Below, one piece after another: positions 38,210-51,497 of a stretch of DNA of 64,000 nucleotides; the first letter of the stretch is position 1, and every line of letters begins with the position of its first letter. The DNA lies in assembly GCF_014696615.1 (NCBI RefSeq), contig NZ_JACJQJ010000019.1, positions 62,001 to 126,000 on the forward strand, written 5' to 3'. The position numbers and the translations under genes are program-made. This DNA is from Nostoc linckia FACHB-104. Lineage in GTDB: Bacteria > Cyanobacteriota > Cyanobacteriia > Cyanobacteriales > Nostocaceae. Under the pieces are notes generated by a model. The model was not told the origin of the DNA. It saw only the letters and a program-made list of their open reading frames with translations, and ran no database searches.

Positions 38210-38806
38210 ATGGTTAGTGAAGTCAAACAAGTCTCCGGTCGCGGCGTACCTTTAATAGGTAATGATATAGATACCGATCGCATCATTCCCGCCCGCTATT
38301 TAAAAGCCATCACCTTTGATGGATTAGGTGAAGGCGCATTTATCGATGACCGCACAGCACTGAAAGGTGAGCATCCCTTTGATTTACCACAATATCAAGG
38401 GGCGAACATTTTAATAGTTAACCGCAACTTTGGCTGTGGTTCCTCACGAGAACACGCACCCCAAGCCCTAGCAAAATGGGGCATTAAAGCCTTAATTGGT
38501 GAAAGCTTTGCAGAAATCTTTTTCGGTAACTGTGTTGCAATGGGTATACCTTGCGTAACTGCTGATAGCGCCACCATCAAAAAGCTGCAAGAACTAGTGA
38601 CAGCCAATCCTCAAGCCTCTGTCACCGTCAATCTAGAAAGCTTGCAAGTCCAAGTTGGCGATTACACAACTCCAGTATCTATCGGTGAAGGCACAAGAAG
38701 CACCTTCGTCTCCGGAACTTGGGATGCTTGCGGTCAATTAGTAGCCAATGCCGAGCAAGTTCGCGCCACTGCGGCAAAATTACCCTATGTAGCTTGGGGG
38801 TATTAA
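38210..38806 (+). CDS. leuD: 3-isopropylmalate dehydratase small subunit
   Basis: This 198-residue swivel-domain subunit contains [16 protein letters not shown] near residue 17 and [15 protein letters not shown] near 75, which bind substrate at the LeuCD interface. Start and length match the family. It completes the isomerase with leuC for leucine biosynthesis. Confidence 0.95.
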
Positions 38807-38949
38807 GAGGTAAGGGGGCAGGGAGCAGGGTGCAGGGGGAAGGGTTAAAGGGGAAGGGGAGGAAGAAGAAACGGCAAATCCAATTACCCAATGCCCCATG
38901 CCCAATGCCCCATGCCCAATCCTAATCCCCCTGCGGATACTCATCCCAT

Positions 38950-39055
38950 TTGCAATTAATTCAGCAGTAGCTAAAACTTTGGGGCCATGAGCCATTAAAC
39001 GTTCACGCGGACGCTCAGTCTCAGGCATATCAGCAATTCTGAGGCAATAGGTCAT
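38950..39055 (-). pseudogene. radC: radC 5' remnant
   Basis: The frame from ATG at 39055 reads [20 protein letters not shown] then [12 protein letters not shown]. This matches the conserved N-terminus of RadC (ESERPRERL...LSDAELLA). After about 36 residues the similarity stops, at NGMSIRRG, and the frame runs into G-rich repeat sequence up to leuD. Intact RadC has some 230-240 residues with a C-terminal MPN/JAB domain, which is absent here. It is a truncated remnant. The rest of the gap (38807-38949) is ATGCCCAATGCCC and GGGGCAGG repeat. Confidence 0.7.
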
Positions 39056-39085
39056 ATAATAGCTGCCGGAAGATTCACCTTAGTT

Positions 39086-39231
39086 GGAACTATCTCAATA
39101 CTTGTCGGTTAAGGGGAAAAGGGGGAATGGGAAAAGGGAAAGAAAAAACCTTTCACCCTTAACCTTTAACCTTTTCCCCAAAACCAATTTTGAGTTCAAA
39201 ATGCTTAACCGAGTAGTATTGGGAACTATCT
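39086..39231. mobile_element. 126-bp MITE copy A with 10-bp target duplication
   Basis: The element is 39096-39221. Its ends are CAATACTTGTCGGTTAAG (left) and CTTAACCGAGTAGTATTG (right), an 18-bp inverted repeat with two mismatches. It is flanked directly by GGAACTATCT on both sides (39086-39095 and 39222-39231). The interior is AAAGG/CCTTTT-rich and non-coding. It is in the opposite orientation to copies B (49411) and C (49816) and nearly identical to B over its length. Confidence 0.92.
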
Positions 39232-39337
39232 TTATTTATCCCTTGTTTGCTTCACAATTCATCTTTATTTGAGAAATTCTTTATTCTTCTGCCAGAATCA
39301 TCTGGGAATAATAGAGTCGAAAAGCTGGTATAAAAAA

Positions 39338-40588
39338 ATGGCATTTATCGTTCATCAAGGTGGCGATCGCTTTTTACTCCAAAGTCCTGAGATGGGAACT
39401 TTCATGGGTTTAATGCTTTTGCCCATACCCGGAGAAAGCCCCCAATCATTTGCGTATAATTTCGGCTCAACCTATAACCGCAAAGAATTACTCAATGTAG
39501 CTGACTTCCCGGAACTGGCAGATGTAGAATTTTTTGCGATTGAATATCCGAGTTTCTCCGATTTTGACCGCTTTTTCCATAGTCCAAATTGGCAATCTCT
39601 GCATAATTTTCTGTATGCGGAGGCGAAAGCCATTGGCTACAATGCTACACGGGAAAAACCTGCTTCCAACCCTCTTGCAGCTTTGTGGAAATATATCCCG
39701 CCTAATCCTGCGGGATTGTGGAAGGTTCCCGCTTTTGGTTTATGGGTGAATCAGCAAGGTTGCTGGCTTGGTAATCGCGATGGCTTGGTTGTGGCTTTGG
39801 ATCGTCAAGGGCAATTTTCTTATCAGCACAAGCTTTCTCAGAATGTGCGCTGTTTGGTAGGAGACGATCGCCATCTTTATGCTAGCTGTGATGATGGGCA
39901 GATATATGATGCGATCGCAAAACTACCGCAGTCAATTTACAATGCTCGTAATCGCAGCGTGCCACATTTTTATAACTTTGCAATCTCTGCTTTAACTCTC
40001 CACAGCGATCGCCTTTTAGTTTTAGATATTTATGGACAATTAACTTACCTCGACTCTAACTTGCAGGTATTATGGCAACAAAAAACTGCAACTCGGCAGG
40101 GTTGGTTTTTAGCTGCTGATGACCAAGCAATTTATCATGGGCATAGTCATGGTGTTACTTGCTATCACCCCAAAACAGGCAAGATAATTTGGGAAAATCA
40201 GACAACAGCAGCAGTTCTGTGCGGACAGTTAACTGCACAACACGTGATTGTTGGTACCAGCGACGGCACAATTTATCAATTAGCGAAAGTTGGGGATCTA
40301 AAAATTCGGCAAACTGAGAGTAGAATTATTGCCACCTGTAAAACAGCAGTTTACGCCTGTGCGATTTCTGAAGATACAAAATTGATTTATGCAGGTGATT
40401 GCCAAGCTAATCTTTATTGTTTCAGTATGGGAAGCGATCGCTTTTCCATCAATCCTACTGGTTGCGGTGCAGTTCTGAATATGCGTCTGTGGGAAAATCG
40501 TCTGTATGTGACTACAACTGAAGGTGCGATCGCTTGTTTTGATGTAGAGACTTTAATACCCTCCACAAAACTTATGAATCAGCACTAA
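39338..40588 (+). CDS. Beta-propeller (PQQ-like repeat) protein of unknown function
   Basis: This is 416 residues from MAFIVHQGGDRFLLQ; the frame opens 23 codons earlier at a TTG. The first 120 residues are a separate domain. From about residue 120, blade-like repeats follow (WVNQQGCWLGNRDGLVVALD, HVIVGTSDGTIYQL, LIYAGDCQANLYCFSM, LYVTTTEGAIACFD), typical of PQQ/WD-like propellers. There is no signal peptide, so it is probably cytoplasmic. I do not recognise a specific family function. It overlaps the end of the convergent Thg1-like gene by 17 bp. Confidence 0.75.
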   Translation: MAFIVHQGGDRFLLQSPEMGTFMGLMLLPIPGESPQSFAYNFGSTYNRKELLNVADFPELADVEFFAIEYPSFSDFDRFFHSPNWQSLHNFLYAEAKAIGYNATREKPASNPLAALWKYIPPNPAGLWKVPAFGLWVNQQGCWLGNRDGLVVALDRQGQFSYQHKLSQNVRCLVGDDRHLYASCDDGQIYDAIAKLPQSIYNARNRSVPHFYNFAISALTLHSDRLLVLDIYGQLTYLDSNLQVLWQQKTATRQGWFLAADDQAIYHGHSHGVTCYHPKTGKIIWENQTTAAVLCGQLTAQHVIVGTSDGTIYQLAKVGDLKIRQTESRIIATCKTAVYACAISEDTKLIYAGDCQANLYCFSMGSDRFSINPTGCGAVLNMRLWENRLYVTTTEGAIACFDVETLIPSTKLMNQH

Positions 40589-41336
40589 CCAATTTGGCAA
40601 TAAATTGGCTGTATTCATCTTTCATTGGCAAGTCTAAATCCCGGCGGATACGTCTTCGTAATGCAGGTACAATTTCTCCCTTAACCGGGTTAAATCCTTG
40701 CTTTTCATATTTTTCCCAATAAAGCCCTACACCACGTTTTTGCCAGTTAGGAATTTGGTTAAAATTAATTCCATGTTGAAATAACATCTCATTTTTCTCA
40801 GCAACCGATAAACCTTTCATCATGCTGGTTGCTTGAGTTGCATTTTGCCCTTCTCGACGCAAACACCAATAGCAATGAGCATTCAGCGCGTTTCTATGAG
40901 CGTCCTCATTCCGCCACCGAAAATAATTCACTACTTCTTCTTTATTAGGAAGCTGAGAAATGCGACAATCAAAGCAGGCTAAAGCACTCAGCGATAAAGA
41001 AAATTTAGCGCTAGCTTCACTTGCTAAAACTGAATTGAGTTTTCTTAATTTACGGTTGAATGTATTTTCATTCAGCGCAAAAAGTAGAGATATTTCATCA
41101 CTTTGGGTATAACCATAGATGATATCAATGCCGCAATTCATCAAATGTTCGACAGTATCCACCATCAAATCTCGAAAGTAGTTATCAAAAGGAGCCTCAA
41201 ATTGATGTACTTCTTTTGTCAGGCGAGTAAAGCCACGTCCATCTAATCGAGCAACGATATAAATTCCGGGTAGCACACAATGATCGTGTGCTGTCTCAAA
41301 CACCCGCATCCTGTGATCAAGTTCATCAAATTTCAA
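40572..41336 (-). CDS. Thg1-family 3'-5' nucleotide-adding enzyme (tRNA-His guanylyltransferase-like)
   Basis: This 254-residue protein has the Thg1 palm-domain hallmarks: RLDGRGFTRLTK near residue 30 (metal-binding Asp), YGYTQSDEISLLF near 75 (second metal-binding Asp-Glu), ASEASAKFS near 105, FDCRI near 125, and a W-R-x2-D-A-H-R-N block (WRNEDAHRNALNA). Thg1 adds G-1 to the 5' end of tRNA-His in eukaryotes. Bacterial relatives (Thg1-like proteins) mostly repair truncated tRNA 5' ends in a template-dependent way. Bacteria encode G-1 of tRNA-His, so repair is the likelier role here. The gene overlaps the neighbouring propeller gene tail to tail. Confidence 0.9.
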   Translation of the reverse strand: MKFDELDHRMRVFETAHDHCVLPGIYIVARLDGRGFTRLTKEVHQFEAPFDNYFRDLMVDTVEHLMNCGIDIIYGYTQSDEISLLFALNENTFNRKLRKLNSVLASEASAKFSLSLSALACFDCRISQLPNKEEVVNYFRWRNEDAHRNALNAHCYWCLRREGQNATQATSMMKGLSVAEKNEMLFQHGINFNQIPNWQKRGVGLYWEKYEKQGFNPVKGEIVPALRRRIRRDLDLPMKDEYSQFIAKLVSADS

Positions 41337-41609
41337 GGTGAAACTCCTAAATAATCAATAATTCGTAATTTGTAATTAAAAGTTAAAGGGTAATAGGTAA
41401 AGATAGATTTTTAATTATTGTGCTTTCACTTTTTTATAAAAATAGATATTGAGTAAAAAATATGCTAAGTGTATAACAATGTTGTACCCCTACAAAGGTA
41501 TATATAAATAACATTAGAGGTATAGCATCAATAATTTCTAGGTAATACAAAAAACTTAACTATGCCTTGCCAATATTGAATTATTAAATAAAAAAATTCG
41601 TAATTAGCA

Positions 41610-41752
41610 GGACTTACGCAACTGGCAAAGTGACCCTCTGGTATAAGAGTCAAGAGTCAAGAGTCAAGGGTCAAAAATTTAGATTTTTTGGACTATTGAC
41701 ATTTGACCTTGGACAAACCTAAACGAAAAAAAATGACACTTGCGTAAGTCCT
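41610..41752. mobile_element. MITE-like element with AGGACTTACGCAA ends
   Basis: Perfect 13-bp inverted ends, AGGACTTACGCAA (41610-41622) and TTGCGTAAGTCCT (41740-41752), flank a non-coding core with GAGTCAA heptamer repeats. AATTAG lies just outside both ends and may be part of a target duplication. The rest of the 41337-41813 gap is AT-rich with ATTACGAATTACGAATT repeats at its right end and no gene. Confidence 0.6.
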
Positions 41753-41813
41753 AATTAGATTGTGCAGATTTCAACCCACACCTAATTACGAATTACGAAT
41801 TACAAATTACGAA

Positions 41814-42413
41814 TTACGAATTGCTATTTACCACTTGGCTACCATGACTACGTGGATCATCTTGGCTAGCTTTTGGTGCAACTGGTGCGGAGAATTTAGA
41901 AACCTGTCCGCTAAGTTGGGCATAAGGTAGAGATAAATCTGTTGCTAAAGCTTCTAAATTACTAGCCATAACAGCACGTGGTTGATCACCAATTGCTTGC
42001 GCTATGGTTTCACCATTCTTACCCAAAAATACAAAATGGGGAATGCCATCCACCCGATATTTCAGCATTTCTGGTAGCCATTTGGTGTTATCCACATTTA
42101 GCATGACAAAGTTGAGCTGATCTGCATATTGCTGTTTTAACTCAGTCATATCTGGTGCCATTTTTTGACAAACAGTACACCAATCAGCGTAAAACTCTAC
42201 CAGTGAAGGCTTACCGTTGCTGATAGCTACTTCTAGAGGTGTAGAGGCTTCATCCAACTTACTCAAAGAAGCCGAAGTTGTTTCACTTCGCAATCCTACA
42301 ACTAAAGCAACGCTGAGTGCGATCGCTACTATGGCTATTAAAAAATTTCTTACCCGCGCCGCTGCTGTAGATTCCGGCTTTGCTGGAGTATTCACTGGCG
42401 AATCTTTAGTCAT
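41814..42413 (-). CDS. Membrane-anchored thioredoxin-domain protein, TxlA/HCF164-like
   Basis: This 199-residue protein has one N-terminal membrane helix (FLIAIVAIALSVALVVGL, about residues 25-43). A thioredoxin fold follows with active site FYADWCTVCQKMAPDM near residue 76 and the cis-proline segment VDGIPHFVFLG near 118. The C-terminal tail is Pro/Ser rich. Related HCF164/TxlA proteins pass reducing power from the cytoplasm across the thylakoid or plasma membrane for cytochrome b6f and photosystem assembly. It diverges from the NIL-ferredoxin gene. Confidence 0.88.
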   Translation of the reverse strand: MTKDSPVNTPAKPESTAAARVRNFLIAIVAIALSVALVVGLRSETTSASLSKLDEASTPLEVAISNGKPSLVEFYADWCTVCQKMAPDMTELKQQYADQLNFVMLNVDNTKWLPEMLKYRVDGIPHFVFLGKNGETIAQAIGDQPRAVMASNLEALATDLSLPYAQLSGQVSKFSAPVAPKASQDDPRSHGSQVVNSNS

Positions 42414-42568
42414 AACAAAATTATTAAATCTTATTAAGCAGTATCATCTTAAGTCTAACTGAAGGCTGGGGGTTGGGGACTGGGATGAGGGAGATGAGGG
42501 GGATGAGGAGACAAGGGGGAATAACAAACACCCATTACCCATTACCCATTACCCATTACCTATGCCCA

Positions 42569-43024
42569 ATGCCCAAAATTAAAGATACCCTAGAACAGAC
42601 AAGAGTCTCTGCCAAACCTGTGAAAAAACGAGTTACTCTCACTTTTCCCAAACGCGCTATACAAATGCCAGTTACCTATAGACTGGCTAAAGAGTTTAAT
42701 GTTGCGGCTAATATTATCCGTGCCCAAGTTGCCCCAAATCAAATTGGTAAGCTGGTTGTAGAATTATTGGGAGATATCGATCAGTTAGATGCGGCGATTG
42801 AGTGGATGCGATCGCAAAATATCAATGTGTCGCATACATTGGGCGAAATTGTCATTGATGAGGATACCTGTGTTCACTGTGGTTTATGTACTGGGGTTTG
42901 TCCCACCGAAGCCTTGAGTCTCCACCCGGAAACATATAAGCTGACATTCACGCGATCGCGTTGCATTGTCTGCGAACAGTGTATCCCCACCTGTCCGGTG
43001 CAAGCAATTTCTACTAATCTTTAG
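42569..43024 (+). CDS. NIL-domain protein with two [4Fe-4S] ferredoxin motifs
   Basis: The 151-residue product starts at MPKIKDTLEQTR. The open frame to 42473 runs through CCCATTA repeats and is not credible as protein. An N-terminal NIL domain (about residues 20-90) precedes two clusters: CVHCGLCTGVCPTEAL and CIVCEQCIPTCPVQAI. This architecture is common in cyanobacteria. NIL domains occur in methionine importers, and the combination has been linked to sulfur metabolism or methionine synthesis, but the substrate is not established. It is probably cytoplasmic. Confidence 0.85.
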   Translation: MPKIKDTLEQTRVSAKPVKKRVTLTFPKRAIQMPVTYRLAKEFNVAANIIRAQVAPNQIGKLVVELLGDIDQLDAAIEWMRSQNINVSHTLGEIVIDEDTCVHCGLCTGVCPTEALSLHPETYKLTFTRSRCIVCEQCIPTCPVQAISTNL

Positions 43025-43132
43025 GGATTGGGGATTGGGGATTGGGGATTGGGAAGGGAACAAAGGGAAATTTTCATTACCCATTACCCATTACCAAACA
43101 CCAAATGACCTTTGACTCTTGACTCTTGACTC

Positions 43133-44200
43133 CTAGACTAAGCTAAACAAATCTGCTATTACTCCACTCTCCCCTACTAACCGACTCTTGGCTGGAGAGT
43201 CATAAACTATCAGCAATGAAGGCTTACCAGTAATATCATTTAATAGCGTCATCCCTTCGGCATGATCCTCGCGATTACCATAGGGAATGTCTTGTACAAG
43301 TTCTGGATAGCTTAAAAGATTTTCGGCTACATTTACGCCACTTTGCCAGCGATAAAGTTGCACTGGGCCGTCTAAATCCATTGTCGGCCCGGCTAATATT
43401 AATAAGTCTTCCCCATCTAAAGCTAAATCTCTAATCCCTAGACCATTCAACCACAGAAAATGTTTTTTATACCCCTTTTTTTCATCACCTATTTGTCGTA
43501 ATGTCATCACTCCTGGGGTAGAATTTTCTAATTCAATTTCTAAAATTACAGCCCAACCACGTAATACTGGCCCTCGTAAACCTAGAAAAATTCGATTTTG
43601 ATAAATGCTGATTCCTTCAATATCAAAACCATTGTCTTTACCGGGAACTGCTGCTTGAATATATGAGCCTAAATGAGCATCGTCTGCTAAGGCTGTCATC
43701 AGCAAATTACTCTGGTTAATACATTCTAGTTTGGCAGCACTTAACTGCACATCTGGATTTTGTGGATGTGGACAAGATGAAAATAATTTCCCGTCTACAA
43801 GCGGAATTCTACCGAGAATATAACGGTTAGGTTCTGATGTAACAGTTGCTAATCTTTGGATATTTTTGACATCGGTATTTTTAGTTTTTGGTTTTTTACG
43901 TTTGTAGCTATGGGAACCAACTAGCCATAAGTAATAGTCAGTATAAGCTAGCCCTTCAATATCAATTTCTTCACTTTCTGGCGCAGGTAAACTGATAAAT
44001 TCTGCCACGCGAAATTGTTGATGGTCGCCAAAGTTCTTACCATCTAGTAAAGATAGCCTTTCCAGGGTAGAGCTTTCATCCGATCCCAGCCATAGCTGCT
44101 TGTCAGGAGTTAATAGTAATGCTGAAAGGTCTGTTCTGTGTTTTTGGAAACTTTCGGTAAATGTCAAAGATACTTGCTCTATTAAATCGCAGTTATTCAT
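43133..44200 (-). CDS. DUF3616-containing protein
   Basis: This 355-residue protein carries the pattern SALLLTPDKQLWLGSDE, EEIDIEGLAYTDYYLWLVGS, GFDIEGISIYQNRIFLGLRG and EDHAEGMTLL, repeating the (D/A)xEGx strand motif of DUF3616 proteins. The spacing suggests a beta-propeller. There is no signal peptide. Function is not known; the conserved acidic residues could form a metal site, as in lactonase-like propellers, but that is a guess. GGGGATT and CCCATTA repeats separate it from the ferredoxin gene. Confidence 0.8.
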   Translation of the reverse strand: MNNCDLIEQVSLTFTESFQKHRTDLSALLLTPDKQLWLGSDESSTLERLSLLDGKNFGDHQQFRVAEFISLPAPESEEIDIEGLAYTDYYLWLVGSHSYKRKKPKTKNTDVKNIQRLATVTSEPNRYILGRIPLVDGKLFSSCPHPQNPDVQLSAAKLECINQSNLLMTALADDAHLGSYIQAAVPGKDNGFDIEGISIYQNRIFLGLRGPVLRGWAVILEIELENSTPGVMTLRQIGDEKKGYKKHFLWLNGLGIRDLALDGEDLLILAGPTMDLDGPVQLYRWQSGVNVAENLLSYPELVQDIPYGNREDHAEGMTLLNDITGKPSLLIVYDSPAKSRLVGESGVIADLFSLV

Positions 44201-44502
44201 ATTACACTGTGCTTAAGTATTGTACGAGTTGACATTAACTAATTAATGTTGTATTCAATACTAGTTTTATATTTATATTGGTAACTGATAATTGTGATTT
44301 AAAAATGAGCGGTCATTAGCATAATCATTGTGCAATGATTGTGTTAATGAAGCAATTTTTTTGCTAAAATAATCAACATTTTTTAATTATTTGTAGCTTT
44401 TCGCTAAAGAATTGCTTAAACAAATATCAAAAGTTATATAGGCAAATTTTTGACTGATGTTATCATGCAATAATCCGCATCGGTATATCATTGGTTGAAC
44501 TT
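44201..44502. other. Divergent AT-rich intergenic region
   Basis: About 300 bp lie between the DUF3616 and CHAD genes. It contains ATGATTGTG-like short direct repeats near 44326-44345 and no open frame. It presumably holds both divergent promoters. Confidence 0.35.
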
Positions 44503-45519
44503 ATGGAATTAGATACAAATACCACAATCCAAACCCTAGGAGACTACGCTTATCAGGCAATTGAAAAACATTATAAGAAAACGTTGAAATGGGAAAAGTC
44601 AGTTAAGAAAGATGAAGACCCAGAGGCATTGCATCAAATGCGTGTAGGAATGCGTCGCCTACGTACCGCTGTCAGTAGATTTGCGATCGCCTTAGATGTA
44701 TCTAAGCCAATTAGTGATAAAAATATCGGCAAAATTGCTCGTCGCCTGGGTAATCTCCGAGATTTAGATGTACTCAAAGAAACTCTAGAAAAAGATTATA
44801 AACCACAGTTATCTTCTAAAGATCAGAAGCATTTAAATACAGCTTTTGATGCTTTAGCTAAACAACGCGAACACGCTCTAGATAATGTACAAACAACATT
44901 AAAAGATGATTCGTATAAGTCTTTAAAACAGGCTTTAGAAGATTGGTTAGAAAAACCCAGTTATCAAGATTTAGCCTCGATTACTATTCAGCAAGTTCTA
45001 CCAGATTTACTGTTACCAGAAGTTAGCCAGTTCTTATTGCATCCCGGTTGGCTAGTGGGTACTGAAGTTGTCGAATCTCAATTCAAAGTCCGCACCGATT
45101 GGGGAGCAAAAAAAGTAGAACAGCACTTAGCTAATGAAGGAGAAAAACTTCATAGTTTACGCAAACAAGCCAAAAGAGTACGCTACCAAATGGATTTATT
45201 TGCAGATTTATACAGCGAATCCTATGCAGCGTATATTGCAGATGTGAAAAATATCCAAGATATTTTGGGTGCAATGCAAGATAGTGTGGTGTTAACTGAA
45301 TGGCTTGAGGATGTCTTTAAGTCAGATATGGATTCTCACGTGCATGGATTGAATAAATTACTCACAGAAAATCGTTACAAATTATGGCAGCAGTGGCAAC
45401 CATTACAAGAGCGTTATCTGACAACCGAAACTAGACATGGTTTTCATTTAACAATCTTACATCCCAAAGAATCTGGCTTTATGAATGAAGATGAGACTAG
45501 GATAGCAAACCCTACATAA
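44503..45519 (+). CDS. CHAD-domain protein
   Basis: This 338-residue helical protein is rich in the conserved His, Arg and Lys of the CHAD domain: EALHQMRVGMRRLRTAVSRF near residue 45, NLRDLDVLKE, LHSLRKQAKRVRYQMDLF near 225, and ILGAMQDSVVLTEWL. CHAD domains bind inorganic polyphosphate through two helical bundles lined with basic residues. No CYTH phosphatase domain is fused or adjacent. The start is the ATG of MELDTNTT, not the upstream TTG at 44491. Confidence 0.88.
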   Translation: MELDTNTTIQTLGDYAYQAIEKHYKKTLKWEKSVKKDEDPEALHQMRVGMRRLRTAVSRFAIALDVSKPISDKNIGKIARRLGNLRDLDVLKETLEKDYKPQLSSKDQKHLNTAFDALAKQREHALDNVQTTLKDDSYKSLKQALEDWLEKPSYQDLASITIQQVLPDLLLPEVSQFLLHPGWLVGTEVVESQFKVRTDWGAKKVEQHLANEGEKLHSLRKQAKRVRYQMDLFADLYSESYAAYIADVKNIQDILGAMQDSVVLTEWLEDVFKSDMDSHVHGLNKLLTENRYKLWQQWQPLQERYLTTETRHGFHLTILHPKESGFMNEDETRIANPT

Positions 45520-45565
45520 ATCAATCACTCATTCCCAATCAGCAAAACGCTACTCTGTCTTTCTT

Positions 45566-45597
45566 TTGACTTTTGACTTTTGACTTTTGACTTACTC
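45566..45597. repeat. CTTTTGA heptamer repeat
   Basis: Four consecutive TTTTGAC units lie between the convergent CHAD gene and the exported protein gene. Confidence 0.75.
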
Positions 45598-45607
45598 ATT
45601 AGCGGTA

Positions 45608-46261
45608 CTAGCGACCAGACAATTGGATAGGTGCTTCTAAAGATAAAACATAAACACTGCTTTGGGGAATCTGCACAATCCGGGTATTTTCTGCGGAACG
45701 CAAACCTGTAACTAGTCCAATAGCGCTTCCTAACATTGCACCTCGGTCAAACTGTTCAGGATCTCCATTGCTGATAAAGCCCAAGGTACTGCCAGTAAGT
45801 CTACCCCAAACAGAACCATTTTCTACAGCTTTATCATTGGCGCGCTTTTGAGTAATAGTAGTGCCAGGAATCATCTGACTTGATGCTTTAATCGAGACAA
45901 TGCGCCCATTAATTACCAAAGATTGGGCAACAATTTTAGCGCCTCCTTCAGTAGGTTTTAGCACAATGGTAACGGGAGTATTTTCTGGTGCAACAATATT
46001 ACCTTGAGCATCTTTAATTGCGCTAGCCAAGGGAAGCGTCAAAGGATAATCCTTTTTTTGCCCAACATCTACGGTAATAGATGCAGGAAATGAAACAATA
46101 ATTGCTGTATCTTGAGGGATGGTTAAATCTTGGCTAGCTGCTTGCGGCTGTACAGTTGCTTGAGGTGATGCATTTGTAGTTGGTTGGGCGCTAGCTGGAA
46201 CTGTGACAGCACCTAACAAAGACAGAGAACAAGCAAGACTTAACAGCATTTGGGTTTTCAT
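45608..46261 (-). CDS. Exported protein of unknown function
   Basis: This 217-residue protein has a clear Sec signal peptide (MLLSLACSLSLLGAVTVPASAQ, likely cut after ASA). AAAGGAAAA precedes the ATG. A Pro/Gln-rich linker is followed by a beta-rich domain (IVSFPASITVDVGQKKDYPL, APENTPVTIVLKPTEGG). A glycine-containing hydrophobic stretch comes next (GAMLGSAIGLVTGL), resembling the short glycine-zipper region of cell-envelope proteins. I do not recognise a named domain. It probably acts in the periplasm or at the outer membrane. Confidence 0.7.
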   Translation of the reverse strand: MKTQMLLSLACSLSLLGAVTVPASAQPTTNASPQATVQPQAASQDLTIPQDTAIIVSFPASITVDVGQKKDYPLTLPLASAIKDAQGNIVAPENTPVTIVLKPTEGGAKIVAQSLVINGRIVSIKASSQMIPGTTITQKRANDKAVENGSVWGRLTGSTLGFISNGDPEQFDRGAMLGSAIGLVTGLRSAENTRIVQIPQSSVYVLSLEAPIQLSGR

Positions 46262-46517
46262 AATCGTTTTCCTTTTAATGTGAATGATGTTTGCGAGGTT
46301 TCAACCCCTTCACTCCATCAATAGGTTAGCGATCGCAATTTTATGCAGCCTTGAGGAAACAAGTTACTAAATTTTTTGGATCTTGTCTCCTATCAAGGGT
46401 TGTACGTCTTCAGCACTATCACCTAGGATGTCTGCGACGGGCTACGCCTACGCAATTCGCAAAATCTCTTGAATTGGTATAATCTGGGTTAATTATTTTC
46501 TGCTATACACAACCCAG

Positions 46518-47717
46518 ATGAATGCTGTAATTAGCTTTTTATTTTTTGTTATTCCACTTTTGACTAGTATTTATATAGCCCAAGTTTCTAACCCTTTATC
46601 TTCTTATCAGCCGCTTCATGTAATAGATGGTGCAGGATTATATAAAAAAGAATTAACCAATGGTAATACAGCATATTTACAAGTAATCGACCTCCGAAAA
46701 ATGCGGATAGACCAAGTTGTGGGTGAGGTTGATAATATGGGTAATGGTCAAGGTAAATACTATAAAGGCGAAGGAGGAAGTTATAGCCCTTATTTTAAAA
46801 ATAAATTGTTTTCGCAAGTAAATGACGAATATAAAAAACTCTATGGGAATGATGTATTTTCCATGATTAATTGTTCGTTTTTCGAGCAATACCAACCAAG
46901 TACACAATTATCCTTTCCCATTAAATTTAATGGTGTAGTGATCACTGGAGGTCATAGCCCGTACGGGCCAGTGAAGCAACCAGAATCTGAATTTTATCGC
47001 ACAATTCGCTTAAAAGCTTTAGTTTGGGATGACAAGCAAGCATATATTACAGATTATGACCCAGCTAGCGGTGCGCCTCTCAACCAAAAAGGAGTCAAAA
47101 ATGCGATCGTTAGTTATCAATATAGCGACCATCCCGCGAAAGTATTAGCTAATAATCAAGTAAATAGATATCAAGTTATCGGTACTTTAAATAAAGATAA
47201 CCGTCAGGGTAATGAGCAACTGTTAATTATGACAGTGAATCAAACAACTCTGGATGAAGCTGCTAAATTATTACGCCAGTTAGGTGTTAAAGGAGATATC
47301 ATAACCGTTGACGGTGGCAGATCCACTTATTTGTTTAATTCAAAAATGGGGGATATTATCTTACCGCAACTGTCTAATCCTCAAGGAAATCCCACATTTC
47401 GAGATTTACCCCATTACCTAGGAGTTCGCAAGGCTGGAACTCAAAAGGTTGTACCGCAAATATTAATCGATCAGCCAGTTGCTAAAGTACAAGTTGAACA
47501 AAATCGACCTTATTTAATCTTGTGGCGAGACAATATCAACAGCAATGTGTCGATTAAATTATATGATCGCAACAACAAAGCTATCCAAAATATTTCCAAC
47601 CGTACTGCTAGCGATGGGGTTTATGAATGGACACCGAATATTCCTGTCAAACAGGGTTATATGATTCGTGTAGCTAGCCGAGAAAACCAAAAGATTTTCG
47701 GAAACTTACAATTATAA
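46518..47717 (+). CDS. Phosphodiester glycosidase (NAGPA-domain) family protein
   Basis: This 399-residue protein has an N-terminal hydrophobic signal or anchor (AVISFLFFVIPLLTSIYIAQ). The NAGPA-like domain contains MINCSFFEQYQPS, TVNQTTLDEAAKLLRQLG and ITVDGGRSTYLFN, with GRS where many relatives have GGS. A C-terminal beta domain begins near residue 300. The eukaryotic relative uncovers mannose 6-phosphate by removing GlcNAc; bacterial members may act on cell-wall or polysaccharide phosphodiesters. It is likely periplasmic. Its stop overlaps the end of the convergent methyltransferase gene by six bases. Confidence 0.8.
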   Translation: MNAVISFLFFVIPLLTSIYIAQVSNPLSSYQPLHVIDGAGLYKKELTNGNTAYLQVIDLRKMRIDQVVGEVDNMGNGQGKYYKGEGGSYSPYFKNKLFSQVNDEYKKLYGNDVFSMINCSFFEQYQPSTQLSFPIKFNGVVITGGHSPYGPVKQPESEFYRTIRLKALVWDDKQAYITDYDPASGAPLNQKGVKNAIVSYQYSDHPAKVLANNQVNRYQVIGTLNKDNRQGNEQLLIMTVNQTTLDEAAKLLRQLGVKGDIITVDGGRSTYLFNSKMGDIILPQLSNPQGNPTFRDLPHYLGVRKAGTQKVVPQILIDQPVAKVQVEQNRPYLILWRDNINSNVSIKLYDRNNKAIQNISNRTASDGVYEWTPNIPVKQGYMIRVASRENQKIFGNLQL

Positions 47718-49037
47718 GTTTGCTGTATCGCTGATAATCTCCATGACTTTGGGATTAACACCATAATATTTAGCCGCTTCCAACATCTTAAAATGCAATA
47801 AAATATCATCCCCAAGTTCTTGAATGATGTTTGGTTGAGATGGCGATATACCCAAAACATTGATAATTTCTGATGCAATAGACTTAGCTAAATAAGGAGG
47901 TACAGAGTTACCTACCTGGCGAAATCCATGCCATTTTGTAATATGAAATCTAAACCAATCGGGATAAGAATGTAGCCTTGCTGCTTCTCTAACTGTGATA
48001 CATCTAGGTGTAAAAGGATGAATTGGCCTAGGAGAAGTAAAAGAGCCACGATACATATCTGTACCTGCTCTTAATGTGTTACAAACACCAGATGGATGTA
48101 ATTTATGAAAACGACTAATAGGTTCTCTTTCTCCTTGCACTGTAGCCGCAAAGCGTTCTCTAGTAGCATCTGAGTGTTTGGTGCGGAAACTGGAAGAGAG
48201 AATTTGAGAATTAAATTTACGTGGGTAGGAATAATTATTTGCTAAAGTTTCAATACATCGAAGTTGCCGAGCATAATTACTAGGTTTACCATATTCTGCT
48301 AATACCGAATCTCGTGAAAGTAATTCATCATAGTTTTCTACTTCTGGGATATCGCCAATTGCATCCCACACTGTCGGACTAATTGGCAATGGTGATGAAT
48401 TTGATTTTGCAGAATTATGGAGTTTTGCGATTTTAGTAATCGGCTGAGGATATTTTGGTAAAGCGATATCTTCCCTTGCACCTAACAAAAATAATCTTTC
48501 GCGCGCCTGTGGTACACCGTAATGGGCAGCGTTAAGAATTTGATAATTTTCTTCTACTTGATAGCCTTTACTTTGAAACTCACTAATCAAAGTTTGCAGA
48601 ATTTGTTTATGTTCGCCAATTGTGATACCTCGGACATTTTCCATTACAAAAAACTTCGGTTGCAACTCCAAAACTAGGCGATGAAAGTGAAATACTAAAG
48701 AGTTGCGGGGGTCGTCAACAGCACGTTTGCCAATAATAGAGAATCCTTGGCAGGGAGACCCCGAAATTACTACATCAATTTCGCGATCGCCAATTTGCGA
48801 TCGCTTTCTAATCTCTTCCCCTGTAGTGTCTACAACGCTTTGGCATAATACTGTCCAAAAAGGAAAATTAAATTCATGGATGGCACAGTGAATCGGGTCG
48901 ATTTCAACAGATGCCAGCACATCAAAGCCAGCTTGTTCAAACCCAAGAGTCATACCGCCTGCACCAGCAAACAAGTCAACTGCAATTGGTCTTTGATGAA
49001 CAGTGCTGAGTTCTAAGTTATCAGTTCTGAGTCTCAT
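47712..49037 (-). CDS. C5-cytosine DNA methyltransferase, orphan
   Basis: This 441-residue protein has all main motifs. Motif I is VDLFAGAGGMTLGFEQAGF, motif IV GSPCQGFS with the catalytic Cys, motif VI VMENVRG, motif VIII QARERLFLLGA, and IX/X RCITVREAARLHSYPDWF and QVGNSVPPYLAKSIA. The target-recognition region is at about 255-350; its site cannot be read from sequence. No restriction endonuclease gene is adjacent, so it is probably a solitary regulatory or protective methylase, or the remnant of a restriction system. The C-terminal 40 residues extend beyond motif X. Confidence 0.92.
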   Translation of the reverse strand: MRLRTDNLELSTVHQRPIAVDLFAGAGGMTLGFEQAGFDVLASVEIDPIHCAIHEFNFPFWTVLCQSVVDTTGEEIRKRSQIGDREIDVVISGSPCQGFSIIGKRAVDDPRNSLVFHFHRLVLELQPKFFVMENVRGITIGEHKQILQTLISEFQSKGYQVEENYQILNAAHYGVPQARERLFLLGAREDIALPKYPQPITKIAKLHNSAKSNSSPLPISPTVWDAIGDIPEVENYDELLSRDSVLAEYGKPSNYARQLRCIETLANNYSYPRKFNSQILSSSFRTKHSDATRERFAATVQGEREPISRFHKLHPSGVCNTLRAGTDMYRGSFTSPRPIHPFTPRCITVREAARLHSYPDWFRFHITKWHGFRQVGNSVPPYLAKSIASEIINVLGISPSQPNIIQELGDDILLHFKMLEAAKYYGVNPKVMEIISDTANL

Positions 49038-49191
49038 TTGTGATTCAGACGTTGACCTATGGACTCTGATGGAGGTACGTGAGCTAGCGATTACACGAAC
49101 TATAATAATAAAAATTTAAAGCAATACATTTTACCCTAAAAATAAGATTTTTCCAAGTAGTAGTTTGCTCTATTAAGTTTACTTAGTTGCA

Positions 49192-49224
49192 AGATTCCCG
49201 ACTTTTTGAAGAAGTCGGGAATCT
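49192..49224. repeat. Strong stem-loop AGATTCCCGACTT/AAGTCGGGAATCT
   Basis: This is a perfect 13-bp stem with a seven-base loop, of a type widely dispersed in filamentous cyanobacteria. It lies upstream of the cytosine methyltransferase gene and is not followed by a T-run on the strand of any gene end. I regard it as a dispersed repeat rather than a terminator. The surrounding 49038-49400 sequence shows no gene. Confidence 0.65.
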
Positions 49225-49400
49225 GACCCTTTACAACTGTTTAAAACTAATTTGCATCTTGCATGATCTCAAATCACTCTTGTTCATTCAATCGATGTAA
49301 AAGATGGGAGATAATGCGTTTAATTCTGACATCATTTCGGCTTTTATATCAGGTAGTTAACTAAGAAATTCAAGAGTGTAGACTTGCCAAATCCCCAATG

Positions 49401-49546
49401 CCCATTGACTCAATACTACTCGGTTAAGCATTTTGAACCCAAAATAGGTTTTAGGGAAAAGGTTAAAGGTTAAGGGTTAAAGGTTTTTTCTTTTCCTTTT
49501 CCCATTCCCCTTTTTCCCCTTAACCGACAAGTATTGCCCATTGACT
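49401..49546. mobile_element. 126-bp MITE copy B with 10-bp target duplication
   Basis: The element is 49411-49536, with ends CAATACTACTCGGTTAAG and CTTAACCGACAAGTATTG. Directly outside both ends is CCCATTGACT (49401-49410 and 49537-49546). The interior (AAAGGTTAAAGGTTAAGGG, then CCTTTTCCCATTCCCC) is nearly the same as copy A read in reverse. Confidence 0.92.
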
Positions 49547-49805
49547 GGAATCACGAATCCTCTACTAAAATTCATGTTGCAAATACTATCTGCTAAATGC
49601 TTGGCAAAGGGTGCATATCCTAGCCGAGCCGAAACAGGATCGGTTAAAGGATTGTCAGCAAAAATTTATTACGTATCCTCAGATTTTTTTCAGAATCAGT
49701 TGTTGTTTCCACCATCAGCTTTTACCCTCAACTATCTTGCATCATGCTGTATGAAAAAAAGAAATCCTTCCCTCTGAAGTAAGGAAGGATTCGTTGATGA
49801 AAATT
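49547..49805. other. Segment between MITE copies B and C
   Basis: About 260 bp lie between the two elements. A 78-codon open frame crosses it from 49541, but it starts inside the target duplication, has no ribosome site and shows no recognisable domain, so I do not call it a gene. A terminator-like hairpin lies at 49763-49791. Confidence 0.4.
49756..49791 (-). terminator. Probable Rho-independent terminator for the MFS gene
   Basis: Read on the minus strand, AATCCTTCC and GGAAGGATT form a nine-pair stem followed by TCTTTTTTT. It lies about 170 bp beyond the MFS stop codon, displaced by MITE copy C, and would end that transcript. Confidence 0.6.
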
Positions 49806-49951
49806 AATGTTGAGTCAATACTGCTCAGTTAAGGATTTTCAAATCGGAATTTGGTTTGGGGAAAAGGTCAAAGGGTAAGGCTTAAAGGTTTTTTCTTGCT
49901 CCTTTTCTCCTTCCCCTTTTACCCTTAACCGACAAGTATTGAATGTTGAGT
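49806..49951. mobile_element. 126-bp MITE copy C with 10-bp target duplication
   Basis: The element is 49816-49941, with ends CAATACTGCTCAGTTAAG and CTTAACCGACAAGTATTG. AATGTTGAGT lies directly outside both ends (49806-49815 and 49942-49951). The interior is more diverged than in copies A and B, so it is probably an older insertion. It sits eight bases from the MFS stop codon. Confidence 0.92.
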
Positions 49952-49958
49952 AATTTGG

Positions 49959-51497
49959 TTAAGCAGCAATTTTATCGGCTGAAACTAGTTCTGATTTTGG
50001 CTTCCCAGGTAAGATTTTTTCCAGCAAATCGCTAAAGGATTTACTGCGTGGTTCTCGCACAAAGATTAAGGGTAACAGCGCTATCAATCGCACAATAGCT
50101 GAAAGCGCAAATAGTCCAGGTAAGCCGCCAATTATATCTAACTCGGCTAAGAAGCCTCCTATTGTGGAACCTAAACCACCAGTCACACCAGTAACCGCAG
50201 CTGCGATCGCAAAATATTGCGAAGGAGACTCTAATGGTGCCATTTCCATCTGAATATTACTGTTGCACAAGTCGATCGCAGCGCCAAAGCCACCCCATAC
50301 TATATGTATAAGTGGTAGCCAAACCCACACAGAAATGAAGTCATTCCCAGTCCCTAGCCAAAATAAAGGTGTGACTGCAATCAAAAAGCCGACTAACAAT
50401 AGTATGGGACGATTTCCTATCTTGTCAGCTAACTTACCCCAAAATACCAGCATGACTAAGTTCGCCCCAGCAATCAAACTACTATAAAGTGTGACTGTAC
50501 TGAGGTCTAAACCTAAATTTTGCAGCATATAAAGGTTAAAAAATGGGGCGCTGAGGTTAACTGCAAATGTCCATAGCCCAAAATAAACTAGAAACTTTAA
50601 AAAGTTGAAATCTTTAAGGATGCTGAATGTATTTAGTTTTGGAGGTTCAGCATTTTCTGAGTTTTGGCGCGCAGTTTTGCCAAAGCGGTAAACTTGGGGA
50701 TTGACATCCACCATCCAAAATTGACAAGCCAAACTGATCAGGCCGATGACTACTCCTAGTAACAAAAGTATGCCGAAACCCTGAATTGTACCACCAGGCA
50801 AAGCGGAAACCGCAAATCCCAATAGGGGGACAGATAACAAATTAGCCAAGCTAGCAGCACTATTACGAAAACCAAAATAACGCCCTCGTAAGCGCGGGGG
50901 AACCAAAGCCGCCATCCAGCTAAACCAGGCGCAACCGCCCAAACCTCCGAGAATATTGGTGACTACAACTATTCCCAATGTCCAAATCACTAACTGGTGG
51001 GGAGGGGTGTGATAATAACAAAACCATGCAATTCCCGCTACTAAAATCAGCCACAGCAGCCGAGAAGGGCCAAAAATTGCCAAGGTATACCAATGACGGC
51101 TGGTAGTGCGATCGGCAAAATAAGCTCCCACTGGTTGCAGGAAATTTGCCAGCATGGGAATAGAAGACAGCAAACCTATTTCTACTGGGGTAGCGCCTAA
51201 CTGAAGCAAAAAGTTAATCAGTATTACGCCGCTGGTAATGTTAGAAAAAATTGTGGCAAATACGCCATCTATAGTAGATGCTTTCAGGCTAGTTCGAGTT
51301 GCTTGCGGAGAAATTTTCGGCGGTGAGTCTGTAGTCAGGGATGTTAGCTGTTCTTTAGAAGGCAAGGGTTCTACAAGTTCTTCAGTAGAGTCAGATAGAG
51401 TCTTCACTAGCGGAAAATCAATATAGAGATAGATTTGTGAGTGAGAGTAGTAGCAGTCAGAAGTAGCCCACTTAAGTCGGTGGTTATAACCTGACAA
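49959..51497 (-). CDS. MFS transporter
   Basis: This 512-residue protein has an N-terminal cytoplasmic tail of about 75 residues followed by about twelve hydrophobic helices. The MFS loop patterns PVGAYFADRTTSRHWY (after helix 2) and FWGKLADKIGNRPILL (after helix 8) are present. RLRGRYFGFRNSAASLANLL near residue 205 is a conserved arginine-rich segment. The substrate is unknown; efflux is plausible but unproven. Only a distal ATG is available for a shorter start, so the long N-terminus may be partly untranslated; an internal GTG near residue 31 is possible. Confidence 0.82.
   Translation of the reverse strand: MSGYNHRLKWATSDCYYSHSQIYLYIDFPLVKTLSDSTEELVEPLPSKEQLTSLTTDSPPKISPQATRTSLKASTIDGVFATIFSNITSGVILINFLLQLGATPVEIGLLSSIPMLANFLQPVGAYFADRTTSRHWYTLAIFGPSRLLWLILVAGIAWFCYYHTPPHQLVIWTLGIVVVTNILGGLGGCAWFSWMAALVPPRLRGRYFGFRNSAASLANLLSVPLLGFAVSALPGGTIQGFGILLLLGVVIGLISLACQFWMVDVNPQVYRFGKTARQNSENAEPPKLNTFSILKDFNFLKFLVYFGLWTFAVNLSAPFFNLYMLQNLGLDLSTVTLYSSLIAGANLVMLVFWGKLADKIGNRPILLLVGFLIAVTPLFWLGTGNDFISVWVWLPLIHIVWGGFGAAIDLCNSNIQMEMAPLESPSQYFAIAAAVTGVTGGLGSTIGGFLAELDIIGGLPGLFALSAIVRLIALLPLIFVREPRSKSFSDLLEKILPGKPKSELVSADKIAA

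Follow-up and report, generated by a model that had tools for sequence, protein, structure and literature searches.

A high-copy family of 126-bp inverted-repeat elements in Nostoc linckia and its probable IS4-family driver

How did three 126-bp repeats, each lying between two copies of its own 10-bp word, come to sit within one 64,000-nt stretch of Nostoc linckia FACHB-104 (GCF_014696615.1, contig NZ_JACJQJ010000019.1, positions 62,001-126,000; the whole stretch is called the window, and its contig C93)? We think it very probable that they belong to a high-copy, non-coding, hairpin-forming family of miniature inverted-repeat transposable elements (MITEs) that is moved in trans by the IS4-subgroup DDE transposase of full-length elements with the same ends.

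Each of the three copies (A, B and C, Table 1) has a purine/pyrimidine-rich interior enclosed by two 18-bp ends (CAATACTnnTCGGTTAAG) and little else, and the only frames of at least 25 amino acids that cross copy A measure 34 and 62 amino acids. The coordinates, the 126-bp lengths, the inverted ends and the perfect 10-bp duplications given in a preliminary description of the window were recovered exactly. With up to three mismatches allowed, the 18-mer end has six matches in the window, all of them the ends of A, B and C (0.51 expected; 0 of 100 shuffled windows reached six), and one end of copy C departs from the end pattern by a single mismatch (CAATACTGCTCAGTTAAG). When 63,854 window positions were tested for a perfect 10-bp repeat on either side of a 126-bp gap, just 39096, 49816 and 49409-49411 qualified, with three adjacent hits at B because two extra bases match by chance. 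The statement that A and B are nearly identical was too strong, as 6 of their 126 positions differ (95% identity). A and C differ at 22 of 126, and C represents a second subfamily.

Table 1. Positions of the three MITE copies and their target duplications in the window
Feature	Position	Strand	Remarks
MITE copy A	39096..39221	+	126 bp, 'AC' subfamily, purine-rich end on left
Target duplication GGAACTATCT, left of A	39086..39095	no strand	single exact copy in 4/7 relatives
Target duplication GGAACTATCT, right of A	39222..39231	no strand	
MITE copy B	49411..49536	-	126 bp, 'AC' subfamily
Target duplication CCCATTGACT, left of B	49401..49410	no strand	
Target duplication CCCATTGACT, right of B	49537..49546	no strand	
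MITE copy C	49816..49941	-	126 bp, 'GC' subfamily
Target duplication AATGTTGAGT, left of C	49806..49815	no strand	single exact copy in G003, G005
Target duplication AATGTTGAGT, right of C	49942..49951	no strand	

A genome-wide search for the 18-bp ends, proposed in the preliminary description, returned 177 exact matches (97 + 80) in the 9.39-Mb, 181-contig assembly of the strain, and none for a reversed control pattern. Together with the short, non-coding bodies, the inverted ends and the constant 10-bp duplication, this number bears out the classification as MITEs. We examined 66 distinct two-ended copies among the places listed, up to contig C108, with ends 70-320 bp apart and 10 flanking bases on both sides (single-end places and those cut by contig ends were excluded), and 44 of them are 125 or 126 bp long. 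The flanking 10-mers match exactly in 31 copies and with one mismatch in 17, two in 3 and three or more in 15, so that 51 copies have at most two mismatches. Exact duplications of 6, 7, 8, 9, 11, 12, 13 or 14 bp were found at none of the 66. Copies lacking duplications had been named beforehand as evidence that would speak against transposition; most copies (48/66) retain theirs with no more than one mismatch, whereas the 15 divergent ones do not. Target preference is weakly palindromic among the 48 best-preserved copies (A never at position 10, T four times at position 1, C once at position 3, G twice at position 8). Positions 8-9 of the right end define the subfamilies (AC in 22 copies, GC in 40, others in 4). 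Identity to the nearer subfamily consensus, gaps excluded, ranges from 84 to 100%, so its members differ in age and do not stem from a single fresh burst.

Of 98 genomes searched, that of the strain itself included, 45 contain the end pattern, and exact ends number 248 in Tolypothrix sp. PCC 7712 (G002, plasmid NZ_CP063788.1) and 144 in G007. Comparison with seven genus-mates (G001, Calothrix brevissima NIES-22, to G007) revealed unoccupied sites with a single 10-mer for A, B and C, as transposition predicts. Site A is unoccupied, with one exact GGAACTATCT, in four of the seven (G005, G006, G004 and G001) and occupied in G003, G002 and G007. In G007 a second MITE with its own duplication lies nearby, with a further stretch inserted inside it. 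Site B is unoccupied in five genomes, with CCCATTGACT in G007, CCCATTGATT in G003 and a diverged 10-mer in G005, G004 and G006 (one exact, one with a single mismatch, three diverged); G002 and G001 are unalignable there. Site C is unoccupied in four, with an exact single AATGTTGAGT in G003 and G005, one mismatch in G002 and two in G007; the alignments of G004, G006 and G001 do not span the insertion site.

These sites also bear on age. The preliminary description regarded the movement as recent, which agrees with the absence of B and C wherever their sites are readable (five and four of seven), but not with copy A, which predates the separation from three species because G003, G002 and G007 share it. 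B and C would be younger than A or have been lost elsewhere, and later gain is the simple reading. Identity between G003 and the window is uneven: 99.6% around and to the right of A and ~94% to the right of C (window 38950-39700 versus 49942-50500), and ~90% to the left of 38850. This pattern suggests mosaic exchange between G003 and the window genome.

What could supply the transposase? Nterm_IS4 matches in six of the eight genus genomes, the strain's own included, led to full-length elements with MITE ends, and elements bounded by the 18-mer were found in G001, G002 and G040. The G001 element is 1474 bp long with the duplication GGAATCGACC, the G002 element is 2168 bp long without a duplication, and G040 has 11 uninterrupted full-length transposase genes, the two loci read there having duplications CCAGTAGTCT and GCACCACTGC. 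The partner transposases match Pfam Nterm_IS4 and DDE_Tnp_1 and score above the cut-off of the NCBIfam model 'IS4 family transposase' (E 1.3e-58 and 4.6e-55). That of Tolypothrix sp. PCC 7712 is 465 amino acids long and has a relative in Calothrix PCC 7716. All seven that were aligned share the invariant residues D140, D217 and E321 and the YREK residues Y314, R317, E321 and K328, and the D(60-110)D(100-150)E and Y(2)R(3)E(6)K spacings are present in a single partner transposase open reading frame (ORF).

Relatives of the partner were sought in a collection of 84,980 genomes, and the best 80 of 126 loci were analysed. The exact MITE pattern stands at both ends in 23 of the 80. Of the 24 such pairs, 13 are flanked by a perfect 10-bp duplication, and 9 different 10-mers are represented. 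A looser pattern (CAATACnnnTCRGTTAAG, up to two mismatches, ends 1-4 kb apart) stands at both ends in 60 of the 80; here 41 of 61 pairs have a perfect 10-bp duplication (37 different 10-mers) and 42 have one with at most one mismatch. About half of the looser pairs (30/61) carry the sister ends CAATACGG... The partner takes two forms, a short one of ~1.47-1.6 kb and a long one of 2.17-2.21 kb with an extra ORF of ~130 amino acids. The commonest right end of the MITEs, CAATACTGCTCGGTTAAG, is identical over 18 bp to ends of 2.2-kb elements, and MITEs and partner occur in one genome in Tolypothrix sp. PCC 7712 and in Nostoc linckia z4. The IS4-like assignment, which had first been proposed from the duplication length, is therefore strengthened by full-length IS4-family elements in relatives that share both the ends and the 10-bp duplication. 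It seems to be the ends that matter and not the interior, because an element in G012 has the same ends and a 10-bp duplication around an interior unrelated to that of the MITE; two G012 loci (L090, L107) have the same or similar ends and unrelated interiors, one with the duplication AAAAGGCTCT.

The IS4 subgroup is described as having ends of the form -AATR--------WTW----, direct repeats of 10-13 bp, the YREK signature and a length of 1400-1650 bp (De Palmenaer et al. 2008, PMC2266710). Both the partner elements and the MITE ends agree with this end consensus and with the 10-13 bp repeats, and YREK is present in the partner transposases. The short form lies within the size range, whereas the long form exceeds it because of its extra conserved ORF; the MITE differs from the subgroup in having no transposase. 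Passenger DNA is described there for the IS231 subgroup and not yet for other IS4 subgroups, perhaps for want of a systematic search (PMC2266710).

If the partner does drive the MITEs, its full-length copies would make an IS4-family (IS4-subgroup) DDE transposase that binds the MITE ends and either cuts the MITE out or copies it, two modes that are not distinguishable here. Insertion into a staggered cut and subsequent repair would then produce the 10-bp duplication. The partner may once have resided in the genome of FACHB-104, perhaps on a plasmid, and its later loss would have left the copies stranded.

Several observations weigh against this explanation. A profile search of the strain's own genome with the partner transposase found only a distant IS4 paralogue on contig C156, and the four contigs of G007, with their 144 exact ends, gave no match at all. 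At least three mismatches separate the flanking 10-mers in 15 of the 66 examined MITEs, and 11 of the 24 exact-end partner pairs have no perfect duplication. In Tolypothrix sp. PCC 7712, two two-ended partner copies are without duplication and a third has no second end within four mismatches. Similarity between the MITEs and the 2.2-kb form beyond the ends is weak (best shuffle p 0.002 over 80 comparisons, composition-controlled). The strain's assembly, moreover, is in 181 contigs, and multicopy full-length elements can drop out of such assemblies.

The driver is thus inferred from relatives, because neither the strain's own genome nor G007 shows a matching transposase; in G003 and G005 the profiles find fragments or the distant paralogue. 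A full-length insertion sequence with the same ends and a transposase, which the preliminary description had proposed to look for, is present in relatives but was not found in the strain's assembly. Its statement that the window holds no transposase stands for the IS4/DDE_Tnp_1 type and for the partner, the types searched for there (other families were not): none of the genome's 25 DDE_Tnp_1 matches falls on C93, and the partner transposase has no match there either. With only a distant IS4 paralogue in the genome, the family looks stranded without its partner in this assembly, and it is possible that a missing replicon or a collapsed repeat hides the partner. Similarity beyond the 18-bp ends, compared in order to name the driver's IS4 sublineage, is weak once composition is allowed for and does not single one out.

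The long form of the partner is accompanied by a conserved protein of ~130 amino acids without a Pfam match, encoded for example at L225:2025-2408 (-) and L115:1940-2329 (+). Eight uninterrupted versions were aligned and are 76-80% identical to the first; other copies are broken (e.g. L222 and L277). In the strain's own genome (L079 and L081, on C29 and C121), a Tn5/IS50-like transposase gene is followed downstream by a homologue with ~45% identity; for this transposase, Tnp_DNA_bind scores above its cut-off and Dimer_Tnp_Tn5 below. Relatives of the protein occur in 48 plasmid records, and a transposase gene adjoins in the four regions opened; in the Rippkaea region, a hypothetical gene that is perhaps a piece of transposase stands between the two. 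The predicted structure is a helix, three strands and a helix (mean pLDDT, the model's own confidence score, 79 for the best of five models and 60-64 for the others), and no PDB entry matches it at E ≤ 0.001. Could the partner be an IS4 lineage of cyanobacteria whose mobile unit comprises two genes, one for the transposase and one for this protein, which is divergently encoded in the IS4-subgroup form and may govern the choice of ends, the choice of target or regulation? We regard this as a rather unlikely elaboration. Should it be true, dependence on the accessory protein, or its loss, would explain the high-copy, stripped 126-bp copies without a driver.

A different source of mobility would be another transposase resident in FACHB-104, such as the 462-amino-acid IS4-type enzyme on C156 or the Tn5/IS50-like ones on C29 and C121. 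These genes exist in the genome, and a resident enzyme would account for movement without a dedicated partner. However, close relatives of the 462-amino-acid element in G005 end in GAATGGCACTAAGAAAAGC, and the Tn5-like elements sit between repeats CTGACTTTTCACGGGATGTGGAAAAG, both unlike CAATACTnnTCGGTTAAG. No MITE-like end within three mismatches was found at the genome's 25 DDE_Tnp_1 loci (~1.5 kb of flanking sequence, shorter where a contig ends), in a search of the genome limited to DDE_Tnp_1 and Nterm_IS4. We therefore give this explanation very little weight.

Where have the three copies landed? The start of a truncated radC-like frame (38780-39055, - strand) is 40 bp away from copy A, which lies upstream of it; the window keeps only the N-terminal part of this gene. 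The radC-like gene of G003 encodes 242 amino acids with a RadC domain, and ~600 bp there separates parts that adjoin in the window. Copy B interrupts a KAP-family NTPase gene just where the Walker A codons (GHWGFGKST) begin, its 10-mer spanning the codon before the first Walker A G and the codon of that G. This gene is open in G003 and a remnant in the window. Near B, at 49336-49340, ~1.3 kb of the KAP NTPase region is missing that is present in G003, G005 and G007. Copy C separates the stop codon of an MFS gene (49959-51497, - strand) from a terminator-like hairpin (49792-49762, - strand). The scan that found this hairpin returned one site against 0.9 expected by chance, and the hairpin is retained in the four relatives compared.

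None of the 32 copies of the genome whose insertion sites were testable (duplication with at most two mismatches, 900-bp flanks) lies inside an open frame of at least 120 amino acids, by a test that overlooks decayed genes such as the KAP NTPase remnant at B. That bias, and the folding of the four single strands of A and C, which is much stronger than that of shuffled sequences (z -3.6 to -5.3), might suggest a functional RNA or regulatory hairpin family, similar to repetitive extragenic palindromic (REP) sequences, that spread otherwise and acquired ends and duplications as by-products; yet good folding is expected by construction of a near-perfect inverted repeat, avoidance of genes is expected from selection against their disruption, and the clean single-copy unoccupied sites and the 10-bp duplications are marks of transposition, which makes this a very improbable account. 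A search of the window placed no Rfam family at the MITE copies. Its sole match, at 41753-41819 and away from them, was rejected (E 0.067, 24 bits against a cut-off of 95).

How does the family compare with MITEs already known from cyanobacteria? One of them, Nezha, is reportedly ~134 bp long with 24-bp ends. It is attributed to Zhou et al. 2008 in the papers that cite it (PMC10969869, PMC3733652, PMC3049150), and one of these relates the proposal that an ISNpu3-like insertion sequence moves it in trans (PMC3049150). Nezha thus resembles the 126-bp family as a cyanobacterial MITE with proposed mobilisation in trans, a comparison drawn from the citing passages and not from ends or duplication. 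The heterocystous cyanobacterium Anabaena sp. 90 is reported to contain 147 complete or partial MITEs, 132 of them intergenic, which its authors class as type II because no insertion sequence in that genome shares their ends (PMC3542288). In contrast, the 126-bp family has insertion sequences with the same ends in relatives. No earlier description of it appeared among the literature results listed, a body that did not cover Zhou et al. 2008 or Wolk et al. 2010, and a search with the end sequences gave no paper. As far as these searches show, the 126-bp elements form a new family of an established kind.

The family offers a clean case of bacterial MITE expansion with a likely driver, dated unoccupied sites and a constant duplication length, and it gives a name to a repeat that recurs beside genes in Tolypothrix/Nostoc-type genomes. 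As some genomes have the MITEs with a matching transposase and others without, they provide a test of how a non-autonomous family may outnumber and outlive its source.

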